In this document: piece by piece, positions 203-11,863 of the stretch
Layout of the letters: the number at the start of each line of letters is the position of its first letter
How positions within the stretch are numbered: the first letter of the stretch is position 1
Source of the DNA: Synechococcus sp. PCC 7336
GTDB lineage: Bacteria > Cyanobacteriota > Cyanobacteriia > Thermostichales > PCC-7336
DNA: 64,000 bases
Direction of reading: 5' to 3'
Assembly: GCF_000332275.1 (NCBI RefSeq)
Contig: NZ_CM001776.1
Span: 1,535,268-1,599,267, forward strand
The notes under the pieces: model-generated
Told to the model about the DNA's origin: nothing
The model's input: the letters and a program-made list of their open reading frames with translations, nothing else
The model's database searches: none
Program-made: the position numbers and the translations under genes

Positions 203-1096
203 TTAACCTCCTACGGCAGGCGTTGCTTGCCTGTCATCTTGTTTCACCTGCGGAGCCTCACTCTTTCCTACCCAGCTCTGCACCCAGCCACGACCGACAT
301 TTGCTTGACCACCCACCTGGAGAAGTCCAGAGAGCAAATCGTGCAAAACCTCGTGGGCTTCGAGAGTTTTCTCGGTTGCAGTGCTGTAGCCCCAAGGGAA
401 ATACAAGAGGGTATCTTTGGGGATGCAAATGTCCGTCCAAAACACCTCTGCCGAACCACCCGCTTCCTCCTCGGTGTCTGCCTGAATTTTGTTGCGGACC
501 TGAGTCCACAGGGAATGCTCCATCAACACCTGAAAATCAGCATCCGGTAAGACAATGCGATTTTGCGACCAGGTTTGTGCAATCTCCCCTTGCAACGACA
601 GCGGCCATTCCTGGCTAAGAGCCAAAGCCGGTGAGACTTCTGTGGGAATCGTTTGTACCTCAATCCTGGCATCGGCGACGTGATAGGTTCCTGCACGAGT
701 GCCAATCGGATGTTTGGGAAGCGTCGGACAGGCTTGCTTACTGACAAGAGCACGATCTCGAATCAGGGAGTGGCAACTCACCCAGGTAAAGACCTCGCGA
801 GTGCCGTTGAGTGCCATCGTCCGCATCGGCACCCATAAGAGCCGCGCATCCCCAAACCAGACTTGATGTACCCCCATTTGCTGTCTCTCCTTCTGTTCTT
901 GCCCAAAGAGCAAGTCAGCATAGGGAGATAGAGATTCAACCTCGCGACGCAAACTTCCCCGCAATGACGAGCCCGGAATGTAAGGAAACTGGGTATGGAC
1001 CTCGCGAGCAATATCCAAAATATTGCCGAGATCTCCTTCTCCACCGCAGTGGATTGGAGCTAAGCCATAAAGATAACCAATACGAAAATCAGTCAA
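203..1096 (-). CDS. cmr4: Type III-B CRISPR RAMP protein Cmr4 (Cas7 family)
   Basis: 297 residues, normal for Cmr4, the backbone subunit of the Cmr effector that lines the crRNA-target duplex and cuts target RNA. The N-terminal half has the family signature: a Gly-rich HCGGEGDLG stretch, then ILDIARE with Asp28 at the place of the catalytic aspartate, then the FPYIPGSSLRGSLR motif (residues 38-51). Near the C-terminus the Gly-rich VGGQANVGRGW loop is typical of Cas7-like RAMPs. The catalytic residue being present suggests that target-RNA cleavage may still be possible. It follows cmr3 by 9 bases and nearly abuts the next gene, so this is an operon. Confidence 0.93.
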   Translation of the reverse strand: MTDFRIGYLYGLAPIHCGGEGDLGNILDIAREVHTQFPYIPGSSLRGSLRREVESLSPYADLLFGQEQKERQQMGVHQVWFGDARLLWVPMRTMALNGTREVFTWVSCHSLIRDRALVSKQACPTLPKHPIGTRAGTYHVADARIEVQTIPTEVSPALALSQEWPLSLQGEIAQTWSQNRIVLPDADFQVLMEHSLWTQVRNKIQADTEEEAGGSAEVFWTDICIPKDTLLYFPWGYSTATEKTLEAHEVLHDLLSGLLQVGGQANVGRGWVQSWVGKSEAPQVKQDDRQATPAVGG

Positions 1097-1105
1097 AATT
1101 TCACC

Positions 1106-5088
<3,983 letters not shown>

Positions 5089-5199
5089 CCACCAGAAATG
5101 CTGTTTGAGGGTGGGGAGGTCGGTGGTGTCGGGTAGGCCGGTGAGTAGTGCGGGATTGTACTGTTCGATCGCCGTTTGTATGAGCGCTTGGAGGTCTGG

Positions 5200-5402
5200 C
5201 GAAAGATTAGCTCTGGGTAGGATGCCCCCGAGAGTAGGTGGCTGATGTAGGTCGGGAAGGCATCTGTGGGGATGCGATCGAACAGGGCGCGATCGCTAGC
5301 TTTGGCGATCGCGTCTGCGCTGGCAGGGGTGTGGGGTGTGGATTCGAGGCCCAGTCCGTAGAGTAGGGCGTTGAGTTTGGCGAACCAGTATTGCTGACAC
5401 AC
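5200..5402 (-). pseudogene. cmr2: Frameshifted N-terminal piece of Cmr2
   Basis: From a GTG at 5402 this frame reads YWFAKLNALLYGLGLES, then ADAIAKASDRALFD and FPTYISHLLSGA. That matches the usual order of the Cmr2 N-terminus (YWxAKxxxLL, then a xxADxIAxASDRxxx block, then HLLSGA). After about 5200-5225 homology jumps to the frame of the main cmr2 body, so a one- or two-base indel separates the halves. Where other Cmr2 proteins have a LLHDP-type HD motif, this one has LLYGLG: the His-Asp pair is absent and the segment is short. The break could be a true mutation, a programmed frameshift or an assembly error. Confidence 0.7.
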
Positions 5403-5709: not shown

Positions 5710-6552
5710 ATGGAAAAGAAATTTTTTATTAGTTGGTCGGGGGAGATTAGTTGTCAGGTTGCTCGGGCTTTCAATAAATGGTTGCCAGAGGTAACATTAA
5801 ATGCAAAACCATTCCTCTCATCTGAAGATATTGAGAAGGGTCAGAATTGGTTCCTAAAAATTGAACAAGAGTTGCAAGATGCTCATTTTGGCATTATTTG
5901 CATCACTCCAGATAACATTGATTCCAAGTGGCTAAATTTTGAAGCAGGTGCTTTATTGCAGTCTCAAGACAAGAGAGTGATGACATTTCTGCTTGGATTA
6001 GAGAATAGTCAGCTCCATCAAGCGAAGAGCCCTCTAGCATTTTTTCAATCAACCCAGTACTCTAAAGATGATATACAAAGGCTTGTTAAGGCCCTCAATA
6101 ATATTGCTGACAGTCCTCTCTCTGACAGTCAGATTCAGAAGCTATTTAATAGCAATTGGAATGACTTGAAAAATGTATTAGATCCTCTTTTAAGGGAAGT
6201 CTCAAGGAAGATCGTTTTCCTTTTAGAAAGTGAAGGACGTAATGTTACGGAACAGATTGAGGCGGTTGAAAGTCATAATCTTGGTGTTATTAGGACATTA
6301 GTTTTCGAGAAAGATGAGCTGCCTCCACTGGACTCAATCGAGGCAATAGTTTACTTCTATGATAGAACAGAATCTTCATCTGAAAAGTTTCATTTGATGA
6401 TTGATAGACTTAAAAAATCACAGCAAAAGGTTAAGCTGATTGTTTATGTCGAGGGTGTTTTGAGTAATGAAGAAATCGAGCTTTTTAAAAGTTACCAACC
6501 TCCTAAAATCTCTAATATGGCTTCGACTCTAGCCACTCGTATGATTGAGTGA
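5710..6552 (+). CDS. TIR-domain protein with an uncharacterised C-terminal domain
   Basis: 280 residues. Residues 1-130 form a TIR domain: the opening KKFFISWSG strand, the FLSSEDIEKGQNW BB-loop region, the HFGIICITPDN strand and the SKWLNFEAGAL motif, in which Glu78 sits at the catalytic position of NAD-consuming TIR domains. Residues about 190-280 look like a separate Rossmann-like unit (alternating strands such as IEAIVYFYD and KVKLIVYVEG, ending in PKISNMASTLATRMIE); I do not recognise it as a known family. The gene is clearly AT-richer and has fewer HIP1 sites than its neighbours, which suggests recent transfer. It lies divergent from the Cmr operon. A defence effector is likely; a link to Cmr signalling is inference. 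Confidence 0.85.
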   Translation: MEKKFFISWSGEISCQVARAFNKWLPEVTLNAKPFLSSEDIEKGQNWFLKIEQELQDAHFGIICITPDNIDSKWLNFEAGALLQSQDKRVMTFLLGLENSQLHQAKSPLAFFQSTQYSKDDIQRLVKALNNIADSPLSDSQIQKLFNSNWNDLKNVLDPLLREVSRKIVFLLESEGRNVTEQIEAVESHNLGVIRTLVFEKDELPPLDSIEAIVYFYDRTESSSEKFHLMIDRLKKSQQKVKLIVYVEGVLSNEEIELFKSYQPPKISNMASTLATRMIE

Positions 6553-6631: not shown

Positions 6632-7462
6632 CTAGAGCGTATCGGGATCGATTCCCTTTTGCCGGAGTTTGTCCAGCAGTTGTTTGCGTAACTGTCGTTC
6701 CTGTTCGGCGCGCTGGCTCTCCAGCTCAGCGCGCTGGCTTTCCTGCCCGGCCTGTCGCAAAGCTTCTCGTTCAGCGCGTTGGCTCTCCTGCTTAGCCAAT
6801 AAAGCCTGTTCGGCCCGCTGGCTCTCCTGCTCGCGCAACAGTCGTTCCTGCTCGGCAACCTCTGCCGGTGCCGTCAGCCGATTCCCCTCTCGGTCGTACC
6901 AATACAGCCACTCTCTCTGGCAATTTCGGTAAGTGCCAGTCTCTCTGCCCAAGCCCAAGCCAATCTCGGGCAACCACACGGGGTCACCCTCCAGCAAGAC
7001 GTAGCGATCGCCTTCGAGTCGATAAATCTCCAAGGGCTGACGCCGTTTGCGGGAGCAGTAGACGGGATTGTAGATTGCGTAGTACAAGACTCCGATATTG
7101 GCGTAGTCTGCCATCTTGGAGCCGTACTCTTGTCCGTAGCTGCGAGAGACGTATTCCACAACCAGAATGGGGAGTGCGCCCTCATGCCAGACCACATAGC
7201 TCTGTCTGCCGTCTGAGCGATCGAAGTGTTCCACCCCCAGACTCAAGAAACCATCCGGGACAATGGCAGGTGTATTGAGTTTGTAATAGACGGCTAAGTT
7301 GATGCCCCAGAACCAATCGGTGCGATCGCGCCAGTGCCAAGCGAGGAGATCGCCCAAGAGGCTGGCGACGAGCGTTTGCAATTCGCTATCCACAGGGGCA
7401 AAGTCAGTTTCGGGCAGTTCGTCTTGGGTAGGGAGGTGTTGTCGAGGTTTGAACTGGACCAT
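6632..7462 (-). CDS. Uma2 family endonuclease-like protein
   Basis: The frame extends to 7615, but the family begins at the ATG encoding MVQFKPRQHLPTQDELPETD, so I place the start at 7462 (276 residues). Uma2 (DUF820) proteins carry a PD-(D/E)XK-type fold: here VPDGFLSLG, then LPILVVEYVSRSYG and the Lys of GSKMADY, followed by YYAIYNP. The C-terminal third is a charged coiled coil built of repeated ESQRAE units, common in cyanobacterial members. Such genes occur in many copies per cyanobacterial genome and their role is unknown. The upstream extension (7463-7615) contains a remnant of another gene pair. Confidence 0.82.
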   Translation of the reverse strand: MVQFKPRQHLPTQDELPETDFAPVDSELQTLVASLLGDLLAWHWRDRTDWFWGINLAVYYKLNTPAIVPDGFLSLGVEHFDRSDGRQSYVVWHEGALPILVVEYVSRSYGQEYGSKMADYANIGVLYYAIYNPVYCSRKRRQPLEIYRLEGDRYVLLEGDPVWLPEIGLGLGRETGTYRNCQREWLYWYDREGNRLTAPAEVAEQERLLREQESQRAEQALLAKQESQRAEREALRQAGQESQRAELESQRAEQERQLRKQLLDKLRQKGIDPDTL

Positions 7463-7494
7463 CAGTTCTGCTCCAATTGAGCTCACTCTATCGT

Positions 7495-7560
7495 AGCGCT
7501 GCCTCCTACTCCGCCGACTCATCACCCTCACCTCCAAACTCAAGCGAGCCCCAAACCCCT
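7495..7560 (-). pseudogene. Remnant of a four-helix-bundle/RelE-like gene pair
   Basis: Upstream of the Uma2 gene the minus strand encodes KGFGARLS directly joined to EVRVMSRRSRR. The same two peptides occur in the intact pair at 9136-9946 (EGFGARLS in the first gene, EVRAMSRRSRR at the start of the second), where some 200 bases separate them. At DNA level a stretch of about 35 bases covering the MSRRSRR codons is nearly identical. This is therefore a scar of a related copy with an internal deletion. Confidence 0.5.
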
Positions 7561-7678
7561 TCAACAACCGCGCCACCCGATTGCGACGGCGATCGCAGAC
7601 AGACGGCTTACCCAACCGCTATCTTTGAAAAGGCACAAGACTTTTCTGTAGGCGGACCCTTTGGGGTAGGAGAGATAG

Positions 7679-7945
7679 ATGGATATTGCACTCACGCCTG
7701 AGCTACAGCGTTTGATTCAGCGACAAGTGAAGAGTGGAAAATATGCTTCAACGAGTGAAGTTTTATTAGCAGGGGTGCGTCTCTTGGACGAAATAGAGTC
7801 GATGTATCGGGGGCGGTATGAGGAATTGCGGCAAGAAGTGCTAATGGGTGTGGACGCTGCTGAGCGAGGGGAGTTCATTCCTGCTGAAACTGTTTTCGAG
7901 CGGGCACAAGCAAGGCTGAATGAGAAGCGAGATCGGGCTACATGA
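7679..7945 (+). CDS. ParD-like type II antitoxin (ribbon-helix-helix)
   Basis: 88 residues starting MDIALTPELQRLIQRQVKSG, with YASTSEVLLAGVRLL following: the standard layout of the ParD/CC2985-type antitoxin, an N-terminal ribbon-helix-helix DNA-binding unit and a charged tail (ERAQARLNEKRD) that should wrap the toxin. The stop overlaps the toxin ATG by 4 bases, so the pair is translationally coupled and probably autoregulated. A GGAGAGATAG ribosome binding site precedes the ATG. Confidence 0.88.
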   Translation: MDIALTPELQRLIQRQVKSGKYASTSEVLLAGVRLLDEIESMYRGRYEELRQEVLMGVDAAERGEFIPAETVFERAQARLNEKRDRAT

Positions 7946-8244
7946 GTTTGACTTGTGTCTTCACGGTTCCTGCCAGTCGAGATTTAGAGGTGATTTTGGA
8001 TCGTCTTGCAGAACTGAACAGTGTAGAGACTGCTGAGCAGTTTCTCGGCAGGGTCAATGATAAGTGTCGCAGACTAACTAGTTTCCCTGGCTTGGGATAT
8101 CGACGAGACGAGCTTTCTCCGGGGATGAGAAGTGTTCCGGTAGCTGACTACTTAATTTTTTATCGAGCATTTGAAGACAGAATTGAAATTCTGAGGGTGG
8201 TGAGTGGATATCGAGATTTAGATACTCTCTTTGAGGAAGAGTGA
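7942..8244 (+). CDS. ParE/RelE-family toxin
   Basis: 100 residues; ParE-type toxin fold: an N-terminal strand and helix (VFTVPASRDLEVILDRLAELNS), a second helix (AEQFLGRVNDKCRRLTSFPGLG), then RRDELSPGMRSVPVADYLIFYRAFEDRIEILRVVSGYRDLD, which matches the C-terminal sheet of ParE proteins, including the YLIFYR strand. ParE members usually poison gyrase and RelE members cleave mRNA at the ribosome; the target cannot be decided here. Pairs with the antitoxin directly upstream. Confidence 0.88.
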   Translation: MSLTCVFTVPASRDLEVILDRLAELNSVETAEQFLGRVNDKCRRLTSFPGLGYRRDELSPGMRSVPVADYLIFYRAFEDRIEILRVVSGYRDLDTLFEEE

Positions 8245-8567: not shown

Positions 8568-8617
8568 GAAGACAGAGTTATTTCCTTCAAGTCAGAATTA
8601 TTGTTCTTGTCTCTTTA

Positions 8618-8863
8618 GTCTCTAATCAGGTGATTTCCCAAGGACTGGGAAGATTCCAACAGCAATGTTGAAACCCTTTGGTCTAACCTGTTTCCAATCA
8701 GGTGATTTCCCAAGGACTGGGAAGCTATTTTTTGGATCTTAATTTTATTAAATACTATAGTTTCCAATCAGGTGATTTCCCAAGGACTGGGAAGGACATC
8801 ATCTCTGACGAAGGATCCGCTTTGGCGGGTTTCCAATCAGGTGATTTCCCAAGGACTGGGAAG
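8618..8863 (-). CRISPR. CRISPR array, four 35-nt repeats and three spacers
   Basis: Repeats at 8618-8652, 8690-8724, 8760-8794 and 8829-8863; spacers of 37, 35 and 34 bases. The last three repeats are identical; the first differs at two positions. The repeat holds a 6-bp stem (TTCCCA/TGGGAA) around a 5-base loop. Read on the minus strand it ends GATTGGAAAC, resembling the 3' end of cyanobacterial type III repeats, so I orient the array on the minus strand, like the cmr genes. The degenerate repeat is then the leader-distal one, as expected. The array is very short and lies 3.2 kb from cmr2. Confidence 0.93.
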
Positions 8864-9135
8864 AGCCGGTTCCTAGAATCAGCTCCTAGACTGAATTGTA
8901 GACCCCCAAATGCGGGGGGTACAAGAATTTGTAAAACTAATTGAGAATAGCGTCATTAAGCAGCCTTTAAAAACACCTGAAACCCTTGCCCAGAGCAGCA
9001 CGCGGGGGGTTCAACGAGAGAATGCGGGTTTCAGCCGACGAGCGTACCCCCCGCACGGATCGGCTCAGCAACCTTCTTAGTCTTCATCTCGAACTATCGG
9101 TATAGAATTTTAACCAGCATTCCCATCGACTAAGC
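8864..9135. other. Probable CRISPR leader side, with a 12-bp inverted repeat
   Basis: On the minus-strand reading this lies directly upstream of the first intact repeat, so the leader should be here. It contains a perfect 12-bp inverted repeat: TGCGGGGGGTAC at 8911-8922 and its complement at 9044-9055. The inner part also has GCGGGGGGT at 9002-9010. No coding sequence. The G-rich inverted repeats may be a small mobile element inserted in the leader. Confidence 0.5.
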
Positions 9136-9543
9136 CTACATTGGATGCCGAGCCACTCGATTGTAAGCCTCGTGAGACATCACCCTCAACGGCACAATCC
9201 CGTCATCCCCCCAACGACACAACAACCGATAGCGATACCCCACCGGCACCCGCACCAACGTCCGATCGCCCCGCAGCCGCTTCCCCCGCAACACCGCCAA
9301 ACTCACCCCATTGCCAAGATCGGCAATGACCTGCCGCGCTTTCTCCACCACCTTGCGAGGCAAATGCCTCAACTCCACCCCATCCCCCTCAAACGATCGC
9401 AACCACTCCAACCGCTTTTCCCGCCTCGCCAACACCGTAACTTCCTTACGTGCCTTCGCCTCCGCACAACAATGACAATAGGCCCCAAACCCCCGATGCC
9501 CGCAGCCAAACCGCTTGCGATGCCTCCTACTCCGCCGACTCAT
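9136..9543 (-). CDS. Cyanobacterial protein with N-terminal Cys/His motif and RelE-like body
   Basis: 135 residues. I prefer the ATG at 9543 (MSRRSRRHRKRFG) because GGAGGTGAGG lies six bases upstream; an ATG at 9558 is possible. The N-terminus has a putative zinc-binding cluster (FGCGHRGFGAYCHCC). The second half (LRHLPRKVVEKARQVIADLGNG, then GDRTLVRVPVGYRYRLLCRWGDDGIVPLRVMSHEAYN) resembles a RelE/HigB-like toxin fold. It overlaps the 3' end of the four-helix-bundle gene and the two form a pair seen in other cyanobacteria. Function unknown; a toxin-type activity is inference. Confidence 0.72.
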   Translation of the reverse strand: MSRRSRRHRKRFGCGHRGFGAYCHCCAEAKARKEVTVLARREKRLEWLRSFEGDGVELRHLPRKVVEKARQVIADLGNGVSLAVLRGKRLRGDRTLVRVPVGYRYRLLCRWGDDGIVPLRVMSHEAYNRVARHPM

Positions 9544-9946
9544 CGCCCTCACCTCCATTCAGCTCATCCAGCGGCACTGCCCACCCCACAGCCCTCTGCC
9601 TCAATCGCATCACCTCCGCCGCTAACTCCCCATACAGCCCATACAACTCCTCCCCCCGCTTCGCCGTCAGATACCCGTGAGCGATCGCCAACTCCACCCA
9701 CACCTGCACCTTCGACGCCTCCGCCGCCACCCCACTCAAGCGCGCTCCAAACCCCTCCACCTGCCAGCGTCGAAACCAAGCTTCCACCAGCCGCAAACAA
9801 ATCCCCCGAGTCGACCCCACCATCGGCTGTCCCATCTCGTTCCGGGCCACAGGGGGAAACTGCTGCACCACCCGAAACACCTGAATAGCCCCATCCATCG
9901 CCAACTGATACACCGACCATTCCTGAACTTGCGCCACAAGATTCAT
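9527..9946 (-). CDS. Four-helix-bundle protein of the S23/Avd-like family
   Basis: 139 residues from the ATG at 9946 (RBS GCAGGGAG). The pattern EWSVYQLAMDGAIQVFRVVQQFP, then RLVEAWFRRW, AAEASKVQVWVELAIAHGYL and LYGLYGELAAEVMRLRQ gives four amphipathic helices and matches the family of 23S-rRNA intervening-sequence proteins, which includes Avd, the partner of diversity-generating reverse transcriptases. It starts 14 bases after the cas2 remnant, which follows a reverse transcriptase-cas1 remnant. Most cyanobacterial homologues are not next to reverse transcriptases, so a functional link is only a possibility. Confidence 0.75.
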   Translation of the reverse strand: MNLVAQVQEWSVYQLAMDGAIQVFRVVQQFPPVARNEMGQPMVGSTRGICLRLVEAWFRRWQVEGFGARLSGVAAEASKVQVWVELAIAHGYLTAKRGEELYGLYGELAAEVMRLRQRAVGWAVPLDELNGGEGDESAE

Positions 9947-9959
9947 CTCCCTGCTCCCA

Positions 9960-10148
9960 TCACACAATGAACGTCGCATCATCCACCTCCCGCTCCGGCT
10001 GCAGCCCCAAAATCGCCACCTTGCGCCGCGTCGAAGCCGACATCAAATAAAACCGCACCTGGTCTTCCTCCTGCTTGACGCAACGCTCCAACTTGTTGCG
10101 CACCATCTCGTACTGCTCTGGCGTCAACACGCACTCAAACAGCGGCGA
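9960..10148 (-). pseudogene. cas2: cas2, C-terminal two thirds only
   Basis: The minus-strand frame ending at 9960 encodes SPLFECVLTPEQYEMV, then RNKLERCVKQEEDQVRFYLM and STRRKVAILG. This is the second half of Cas2: the FECxLT strand, the EEDxVRFY strand and a basic tail. The N-terminal YxxxYDI(S/P) strand with the metal-binding Asp is missing: the frame upstream reads PYRTQGEL, unrelated to Cas2, with no fitting start. So the gene lost its 5' third by deletion. Cas2 works with Cas1 to insert new spacers, hence the local adaptation module is dead. Confidence 0.8.
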
Positions 10149-10179
10149 TAGCTCACCTTGTGTCCGGTATGGGGATGGG

Positions 10180-10449
10180 TCACCGTTGAGTCGCCTCCTC
10201 CGTTTTGCGCTTGCGATACAGCCGCTTTAACACCACTCGGCTGTTGTGCAACTTGGCCTCAATAATGCTGGCTGCCTGCCGCCGCATAAACTCCTCATCC
10301 TCCGCTACTCCGACAAACAGCTCTGGCGTCACGCCATCCACCCCTGCCGCTCCGCTACCCCGCCGCACCAGCACCCATGCCGCCATCAACTGTTCGAGAT
10401 AAATCTGCATCGACCCCTTGCCTGTCTCTCGCATTAACAATGGGTTCAT
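10180..10449 (-). pseudogene. Reverse transcriptase-Cas1 fusion, internally deleted remnant
   Basis: The 89-residue frame joins two unrelated pieces. Residues 1-50 (QLMAAWVLVRRGSGAAGVDG, then VTPELFVGVAEDE) match the start of the reverse transcriptase domain of cyanobacterial RT-Cas1 or CRISPR RT proteins. From about residue 56, RRQAASIIEAKLHNSRVVLK and RLYRKRKTEE match an internal Cas1 helix that contacts DNA. The RT palm (YxDD) and all Cas1 catalytic residues are absent, so hundreds of codons were lost, apparently in frame. The frame then ends at a TGA. An intact version would acquire spacers, possibly from RNA. Confidence 0.75.
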
Positions 10450-10853
10450 GTTCCCAACGGCCTATCTGCGCCCAAACCCGAGTAGCCGTTCCCAACACCT
10501 GAGTTCGCACCTGAGTTCGTAGCCGCGATCGCCAGTGCGCCTGAGTTCGATGGCCCTGCATTGCCCTCACCCCCGGCCCCTCTCCCAAACTTGGGAGAGG
10601 GGAGAAACAGCCGAAAATCCTTACGGGGCCTTGTTCCCCTGCCCCCAAAGTTGGGGTTAGGGGTTAGGGGAAGGGGGCCACAGGCATCTAGACAAATGGC
10701 CAATGTTTCGGAATATGAATTTCGCCAGCAGCATCAAATTTGGGGGAAGGGGTTAGGGGATGGGGGCCAGACGCTCGTCGAACTGACGCCAGCTCAGTCG
10801 CGAACCATCCGGGCAGGGGTTGATAGAATCCAGTCAACTTCTCTCGGCCTGCC
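10450..10853. repeat. Intergenic zone of short dispersed repeats
   Basis: No supported gene. A 12-base unit CACCTGAGTTCG is tandem at 10496-10519, with a third copy, one base changed, at 10538-10549. At about 10575-10605 lies a palindrome (CCCCTCTCCCAAACTTGGGA and onward), and further C/G-rich hairpins follow to 10680. The stretch at about 10743-10793 (GGGGAAGGGGTTAGGGGATG, later CGAACTGACG) recurs inside the MITE at 30160-30210. Confidence 0.6.
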
Positions 10854-11108
10854 ATGCCCCGCTCCATCCGAGTGCATCCCGACTACCGACCTGCCGTGGC
10901 GATCGCGCTGGAGCGCAATGGCTTTTTGACCCAAGGGGATCTGGCGGTCCATCTCGAAATTGCGCTCTCCACCGTCAGTAACTTTTGCCGGGGGCTGAAT
11001 GTCTCCATCTCGAAGTACGAGCAAATCTGCGAAGCTTTGGGGCTGGACAAGAAAAAAATTCTGAAGCCGAAACAGGCCAGCGATACGCGATCGAAATCTT
11101 GCAGATAA
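10854..11108 (+). pseudogene. N-terminal HTH segment of a larger regulator or NTPase, truncated
   Basis: MPRSIRVHPDYRPAVAIALE, then GFLTQGDLAVHLEIALSTVSNFCRG and YEQICEALGLD form the XRE-like helix-turn-helix that opens many large cyanobacterial AAA/NB-ARC or WD40 proteins. Those continue for hundreds of residues; here homology stops at about residue 73 (KKKILKPK, near 11075) and the rest of the frame is the antisense of the TPR fragment on the other strand. So only the 5' end survives. Residual DNA binding is possible but unproven. Confidence 0.6.
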
Positions 11109-11863
11109 AAATAAGCACTGCCGAGCATCATCAGGATAACCCCCAACAATTCCCGATTTCCTATCTCCTCTACAATCCTCAGGTGTTGATGAAGATAGTC
11201 GATCGCCTGGGGATAGTCTCCAATCGAGAGATAGGTACTGCTGAGATTGCCAAGCGCCCGATTTTCACCTTCGCGATCGCCGCTCGCCCTCGAAATCTCT
11301 AGATGCTTTTGGTGGCACTCAATTGCCCTCTCGTATTCGCCCAGTTTTTGATAAACCTTGCCGATGCCACTCAGAGCTTTTCCTTCACTCCGGGCCTCTT
11401 CGTTCTTTTGGGCGAGCGCCAATTCTTGTTGGAAGTAGTCGAGAGCGCGATCGTAATCTCCCTGAGAGAAGCTGGCATGTCCCAAGCCATTCAAACAAAG
11501 GGAATCCCAGCCTGAATCGAGCTGGCCGAACAGCCTCTCGTAGAGCTCGACCTGTTCGGCATAATTCCCCCACAGGGCCAACTGATTGTGCCATTCGTCT
11601 TGGGTCGGAAGGTTAAGCCGAACCGTCAATAGCGCAGTAGCTTTTCCCCAATCTTCGACTTCGCAAAAATGGTGGAAAGCTTCGATATACCCTCTCGTTT
11701 GCTCGATGTTGCTGGCATCCCGTTGAGGCTTATGTTTGAGAATCCAGTTGAGCGCCGCTCTTAAATGAGTTCGTTTTTGAGCAGGTTGAATCCGTTTTAA
11801 AGATGCTGGGTCGAGTGAGAGTCTTTCTAAAACTGATTGGCCTGAAGGTAAGATATCATCCAT
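10883..11863 (-). pseudogene. TPR-repeat protein, 3'-truncated
   Basis: The frame starts MDDILPSGQSVLERLSLDPA, with a helical N-terminal region and then at least four tetratricopeptide units (examples: ASFSQGDYDRALDYFQQELA, KVYQKLGEYERAIECHQKHL, STYLSIGDYPQAIDYLHQHL, GSAYFYLQDFDR). After QDFDR, near 11085, the frame runs antisense to the HTH gene and no longer resembles a TPR. The protein-coding homology is thus 11085-11863. TPRs mediate protein-protein contacts; the missing C-terminus makes its original role unclear. Confidence 0.7.

Follow-up and report, generated by a model that had tools for sequence, protein, structure and literature searches.

Conserved scraps beside a type III-B CRISPR system of Synechococcus sp. 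PCC 7336 point to the recent collapse of an RT-Cas1 and cas2 adaptation operon

The genome of Synechococcus sp. PCC 7336, a single contig of 5.07 Mb, contains an open reading frame of 89 residues (MNPLLMRETGKGSMQIYLEQLMAAWVLVRRGSGAAGVDGVTPELFVGVAEDEEFMRRQAASIIEAKLHNSRVVLKRLYRKRKTEEATQR; minus strand, 10180-10449) in the same window as the effector genes of a type III-B CRISPR system. All positions refer to the window, the 64,000-nucleotide stretch of DNA that was analyzed, unless stated otherwise. The initial annotation, made from the sequence alone, regarded this frame as a relic of a reverse transcriptase (RT)-Cas1 fusion. The locus raises the question of where so short a frame came from and whether the III-B system once acquired spacers from RNA. 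In the literature consulted, neither RT-Cas1 relics nor this locus of Synechococcus sp. PCC 7336 had been described before.

In the analysis, 16 intact RT-Cas1 proteins of cyanobacteria were combined into a search profile, which was run against the 1,849 six-frame open reading frames of the window. The 89-residue frame as a whole was matched with an E-value of 3e-23. It was matched twice in order, at profile positions 3-42 (i-E 1.2e-11) and 420-460 (i-E 4.1e-12), and the best unrelated frame of the window had an E-value of 1.4. The library models found the Cas1 half only (Pfam Cas_Cas1, E 9e-5, residues 48-86; PADLOC Cas1, E 8.7e-5), and the RT half had no match in Pfam, PHROGs, or PDB. Since Pfam RVT_1 starts further in and does not cover the N-terminal region, the libraries are blind to this half. 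The two ordered domains of one profile match bear out the initial annotation, according to which the frame starts as a CRISPR-linked RT and ends as a Cas1 helix. Of the two observations that it had named as speaking against itself, a match for one half only was obtained with the library models but not with the RT-Cas1 family profile, which detected both halves; the other, an intact RT-Cas1 elsewhere in the genome giving the same peptide, was not found in the genome. The other cas1 genes of the genome were considered as a source of the peptide and rejected, as they encode intact proteins of 335 and 553 residues and belong to arrays with other repeats.

Searches with intact proteins (tblastn) revealed four scraps that lie collinearly on the minus strand and correspond to residues 8-54, 431-470, and 628-647 of a 671-residue RT-Cas1, followed by residues 33-92 of the 92 residues of Cas2. 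Scrap 1 (10303-10449), the start of the 89-residue frame, represents the N-terminal RT region (residues ~8-50), gave the first of the two profile matches, and is 59% identical to the RT-Cas1 of genome G103 (tblastn 2.7e-14). Scrap 2 (10189-10299), which gave the second profile match, corresponds to a Cas1 helix (residues ~433-469) and shares the reading frame of scrap 1. The frame therefore consists of 49 residues of the RT-Cas1 N terminus joined in frame to 37 residues of the Cas1 helix, and about 380 residues between them are missing. Scrap 3 (10136-10186) is a Cas1 C-terminal stretch, TVTHPHTGHKVSYRRCL (residues ~630-646; profile E 3.6e-6), with 75% identity to the RT-Cas1 of genome G058 (tblastn 9e-7). 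The cas2 remnant (9963-10142), which has lost its N terminus, was recognized by the Cas2 profile (E 1.9e-27), by tblastn (3e-24), and by PADLOC. Since scrap 3 is in a different frame from scrap 2 and the cas2 remnant is in yet another, the 89-residue frame is only the open part of a longer pseudogene.

What is left does not amount to a working enzyme in any of its parts. About 570 of the 670 residues of RT-Cas1 are deleted, and no catalytic residue of RT or Cas1 remains. The RT motif YGDD (residues 231-234; YxDD class) falls in the deleted stretch ~51-432, and E495 of the Cas1 motif GYEG, His553 and His555 of LHTHFG, and DLVEEF (572-577) fall in the deleted stretch ~470-629. The adjacent cas2 is likewise incomplete.

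When the 89-residue peptide was compared with 116 genomes, two ordered matches within one open reading frame were found in G103 (675-residue frame; query residues 4-59 and 46-88) and G058 (672-residue frame), and the same ordered match, though weaker, in G082. Among 390 members of the class, about 25 genomes carried both halves in one frame of 660-740 residues, about 1.25 kb apart and in the same phase. These intact relatives have the RT motif YGDD and the Cas1 signatures, and cas2 usually comes next downstream. The pattern occurs, for example, in Phormidesmis priestleyi, Leptolyngbya sp. PCC 6406, Nodosilinea, Microcoleus sp. FACHB-1515, and Arthrospira sp. PCC 9108. In a FastTree phylogeny that included the relic as a partial row, the relic grouped within a subclade made up of Phormidesmis, Leptolyngbya, Nodosilinea, and Microcoleus sp. 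FACHB-1515, apart from Arthrospira, Richelia, and the outgroups (split support 0.996); this placement holds at the level of the subclade. With one reading frame homologous to one protein, and with a position inside the cyanobacterial RT-Cas1 clade, the relic descends from a true RT-Cas1 fusion, as had been proposed. Silas et al. 2017 (PMC5513706) place the RT-Cas1 of Arthrospira in branch 5, which is specific to cyanobacteria. The relic and branch 5 are homologous and collinear in the RT N terminus, the Cas1 helix, the Cas1 C terminus, and the adjacent cas2, whereas the relic, with its large deletions and truncated cas2, is not functional.

The neighboring genes are also those of RT-Cas1 loci. 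Downstream of the relic, the four-helix-bundle gene (PF05635 / TIGR02436; minus strand, 9527-9982) is open and, according to HMMs and synteny, is the usual neighbor of cas2 in such loci. The next syntenic neighbor, a gene for a DUF7682 and ParE-like protein (minus strand, 9136-9558), is open as well (Pfam; synteny with loci L041, L043, L044, and L156). Upstream of the relic lies a remnant of an HTH-NTPase gene (plus strand, 10854-11072), a divergent gene that flanks many intact RT-Cas1 loci; the first 73 of 474 residues are left, with 81% identity to G058 (E 1e-34). This cut gene meets head-on, within 10854-11863, the N-terminal part of a TPR gene (minus strand, 11108-11863; tblastn E 8e-54) that is inverted relative to the G058 locus. 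The locus of Microcoleus sp. FACHB-1515 (L043/L028) has rt-cas1, cas2, the four-helix-bundle gene, the DUF7682/ParE-like gene, and the divergent HTH-NTPase gene in the same order, with a CRISPR array and cmr genes close by. It differs from the locus described here in that its genes are intact, with 57-75% identity to the scraps, and its CRISPR repeat is another one.

The cassette of cas2, four-helix-bundle, and DUF7682 genes has left a second and smaller wreck, which was detected by tblastn and DNA matches on the minus strand at 7496-7600, at the 5' end of the open reading frame 6632-7615. It consists, in this order, of Cas2 residues ~10-24 (VCDRRRNRVARLLKG; 7556-7600; Cas2 tblastn 1.7e-6), a piece of 26 nucleotides that matches 9734-9759 of the four-helix-bundle gene with 88% identity, and a piece of 41 nucleotides 95% identical to 9517-9557, where the four-helix-bundle gene ends and the DUF7682 gene starts. 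A dispersed repeat was rejected as the source, the core of the 41-nucleotide piece being present at only two sites of the genome, 2 kb apart. Since the pieces are ordered and the core is confined to these two sites, a second copy of the cassette appears to have stood nearby and to have shrunk to about 105 bp.

At least three deletions have cut the operon, because scrap 3 and the cas2 remnant continue in other frames. The first deletion was in frame and thus produced the 89-residue frame; the other two changed the frame. These two further deletions, the cas2 remnant, and the second wreck had gone unnoticed in the initial annotation. At the first junction, D1 (minus strand, 10300-10302), RT residue ~50 (GVA) is joined to Cas1 residue ~433 (DE) in G103 numbering, and the alignment to intact relatives showed that about 380 codons were lost with the frame kept, in agreement with the in-frame removal claimed initially. 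The end points of D1 and D2 are approximate, as identity to even the closest relatives reaches only about 70%. At the third junction, D3, scrap 3 and the cas2 remnant share 7 nucleotides (10136-10142). In Microcoleus, the Cas1 side reads CGC TGT TTG GAG and the Cas2 side GTG TTT GAG TGC, with TGTTTG in common; the probability of an overlap of at least 6 nucleotides at one random junction is about 0.001, although the bases of the ancestor may differ from those of the relatives. At the D1 site, CAR-GA codons of similar sequence and equal phase stand on either side in the relatives; a deletion between them would keep the frame, although this is suggestive only. From these junction sequences, it is likely that the deletions arose between short direct repeats.

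The scraps have otherwise changed little. Over the 90 retained RT-Cas1 columns, the relic has a mean identity of 61% to the intact proteins (best, 72%), and the intact proteins have mean identities of 49-68% among themselves over the same columns. All 20 columns that are invariant among the intact proteins are unchanged in the relic, and there are no stop codons inside the scraps. Since the scraps show no drift and all invariant residues are kept, the deletions are recent, and the sequence must have been under selection until not long ago. The adaptation pair of rt-cas1 and cas2 has thus been cut by several internal deletions to conserved scraps.

Other origins of the frame were weighed against this one. 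It was conceivable that two separate neighboring genes, a free-standing CRISPR-linked RT gene and a cas1 gene, were joined in frame by one chance deletion and had never been fused. RT and Cas1 are unfused in some CRISPR loci (PMC5541045), and stand-alone Cas1 proteins with 61-67% identity to the Cas1 domain exist. However, the nearest relatives of both halves are fused frames of 660-740 residues (about 27 intact cases), and the relic nests inside the fused clade, which makes separate genes a very unlikely source. The weak library matches, limited to Cas1, might also have reflected a chance likeness of a random GC-rich frame to RT and Cas1. This idea was refuted by the profile search, in which two domains were matched in order with an E-value that stands out among all frames of the window, and its probability is practically nil.

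On the other hand, the 89-residue chimera may be a retained mini-protein with a new function, such as binding repeat DNA or Cas2, as its frame is open and has kept every invariant residue. Yet conservation is just as high in scrap 3, which is out of frame, and in the cas2 remnant, which lacks a start, so that the conservation dates the collapse only and does not indicate a new function of the frame. Moreover, the searches of 116 and 390 genomes found the same chimera in no relative, and the catalytic residues are absent; we therefore consider a mini-protein very unlikely. An assembly or sequencing artifact in an intact operon is more improbable still, given a single-contig genome, several independent junctions, the second wreck 2 kb away, the truncated HTH gene adjoining, and independent broken copies in other genomes. 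We conclude with high confidence that the locus is best explained as a recently collapsed RT-Cas1/cas2 adaptation operon of a III-B system in which acquisition has probably stopped. The case is one of ordinary decay in a known system, with comparable wrecks in other cyanobacteria.

The III-B effector genes cmr4, cmr3, and cmr2 (cas10) occupy 203-5088 on the minus strand (PADLOC: Cmr2, E 1.6e-293; Cmr3, 6e-57; Cmr4, 6e-28); cmr5 and a gene for a Cmr1-like RAMP protein are found just outside the window, to its left. In genome G373 (L145), RT-Cas1 and cas2 adjoin cmr2, and the cmr2, cmr3, and cmr4 genes are 48, 48, and 64% identical to those of the window (48-64% with cmr1 included); the RT-Cas1 there differs from the relic in being nearly full length, with a frameshift and a stop that reflect decay or sequencing error. 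In Microcoleus (L043), the cmr genes are at most 10 kb from RT-Cas1. The pairing of RT-Cas1 with homologous cmr2, cmr3, and cmr4 in these two relatives supports the assignment of the relic to the type III-B system. In Cas10/Cmr2, the HD part at the N terminus (5065-5402, minus strand, to ~5202) is out of frame with the remainder (from 5106). No HD histidine was visible in the 5065-5402 region; the GGDD motif is intact. This change of frame may be either a frameshift or a sequencing error.

A large array, whose 103 repeats (GTTTCCAATCAGGTGATTTCCCAAGGTGTGGGAAAG) are identical and which is interrupted by a transposase-like gene, is located left of the window and the cmr genes (G000:C1:1523093-1532341; L032), and a small array of four repeats, a variant of the large-array repeat, is found at 8613-8864 (plus strand). 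The case represents a III-B system that recently lost its RT-Cas1 module but still has most of its effector genes and a long array. Both intact cas1-cas2 modules of the genome adjoin arrays with unrelated repeats, so the III-B array is probably frozen; without its own Cas1-Cas2, it would no longer gain spacers. The identity of all 103 repeats fits recent activity and is by itself no sign of freezing. Acquisition in trans is known elsewhere, from type VI-B using II-C Cas1 (PMC8092290), which counts against a frozen array.

Before the collapse, the module could have used RNA as a source of spacers. RNA spacer uptake was shown for the III-B RT-Cas1 of Marinomonas mediterranea (PMC5576922), which has the same domain pair and effector type as the system here; unlike the relic, it is intact, and it belongs to a different branch, RT branch 1 (PMC5513706). 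In the literature consulted, we found no demonstrated RNA uptake by the cyanobacterial RT-Cas1 branch. No spacer of a 7-kb stretch of the array matched the phage and plasmid collections, which is in line with the enigmatic spacers of Arthrospira III-B; the spacer source was reported as enigmatic for branch 5, which includes Arthrospira (PMC5513706). Because the RT core is deleted and the spacers are unmatched, we can only infer RNA-capable acquisition by the lost RT-Cas1, as a plausible ancestry of the system.

Broken RT-Cas1 copies were found in about 11 other genomes, which suggests that RT-linked acquisition is evolutionarily fragile in cyanobacteria. Residues 2-83 are left in G188 (L141), between two arrays, and residues 421-477 in G179 (L142). 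RT-Cas1 is shredded in G168 (L147) and G178 (L144), lacks 116 residues of the RT core in G312 (L146), carries frameshifts or stops in G264, G373, and G329, and is reduced to C-terminal pieces in G422 and G183. In G029, an RT piece is separated from a Cas1 piece by 9 kb. In a tally made by hand from the listed rows, at comparable search thresholds, about 7 RT-Cas1 copies were broken and 27 intact, compared with about 3 broken and 100 intact orthologues of the plain cas1 of the genome. The difference gave a Fisher P of 0.002, or 0.02 on a stricter count, values that are uncorrected for kinship, draft assemblies, and the double length of RT-Cas1, and the excess of decay over plain cas1 is thus a lead. 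A broader idea, which we put forward tentatively and regard as rather doubtful, is that cyanobacterial RT-Cas1 modules may have been lost repeatedly and faster than ordinary cas1, with type III effectors and long arrays persisting. RNA-capable acquisition would then be costly and repeatedly shed, and at the present locus the cas2 cassette would have been duplicated and both copies shredded.

The window and the related loci showed several further features. In most of the intact RT-Cas1 loci of cyanobacteria, cas2 is followed by a PF05635 gene, often present twice (L035-L044, L052, and L143-L156), and in L143 a PF05635 gene lies behind a plain cas1-cas2. This family resembles Avd, the RT partner in diversity-generating retroelements, and the four-helix-bundle protein could assist the CRISPR RT as an accessory factor. 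A TIR-domain protein (plus strand, 5710-6552; Pfam TIR_2, E 1e-11), encoded between the cmr genes and the small array, is a possible type III ancillary effector. The interval from the second wreck to the small array contains a ParD/ParE-like type II toxin-antitoxin pair (plus strand, 7679-8244; Pfam, E 9e-7 and 2e-14). Palindromic repeats that are GC-rich and dispersed (CCCCTCTCCCAAACTTGGGAGAGGGG) occur in the gap between the relic and the HTH remnant (10560-10780) and elsewhere in the genome (L034:5774-7802).
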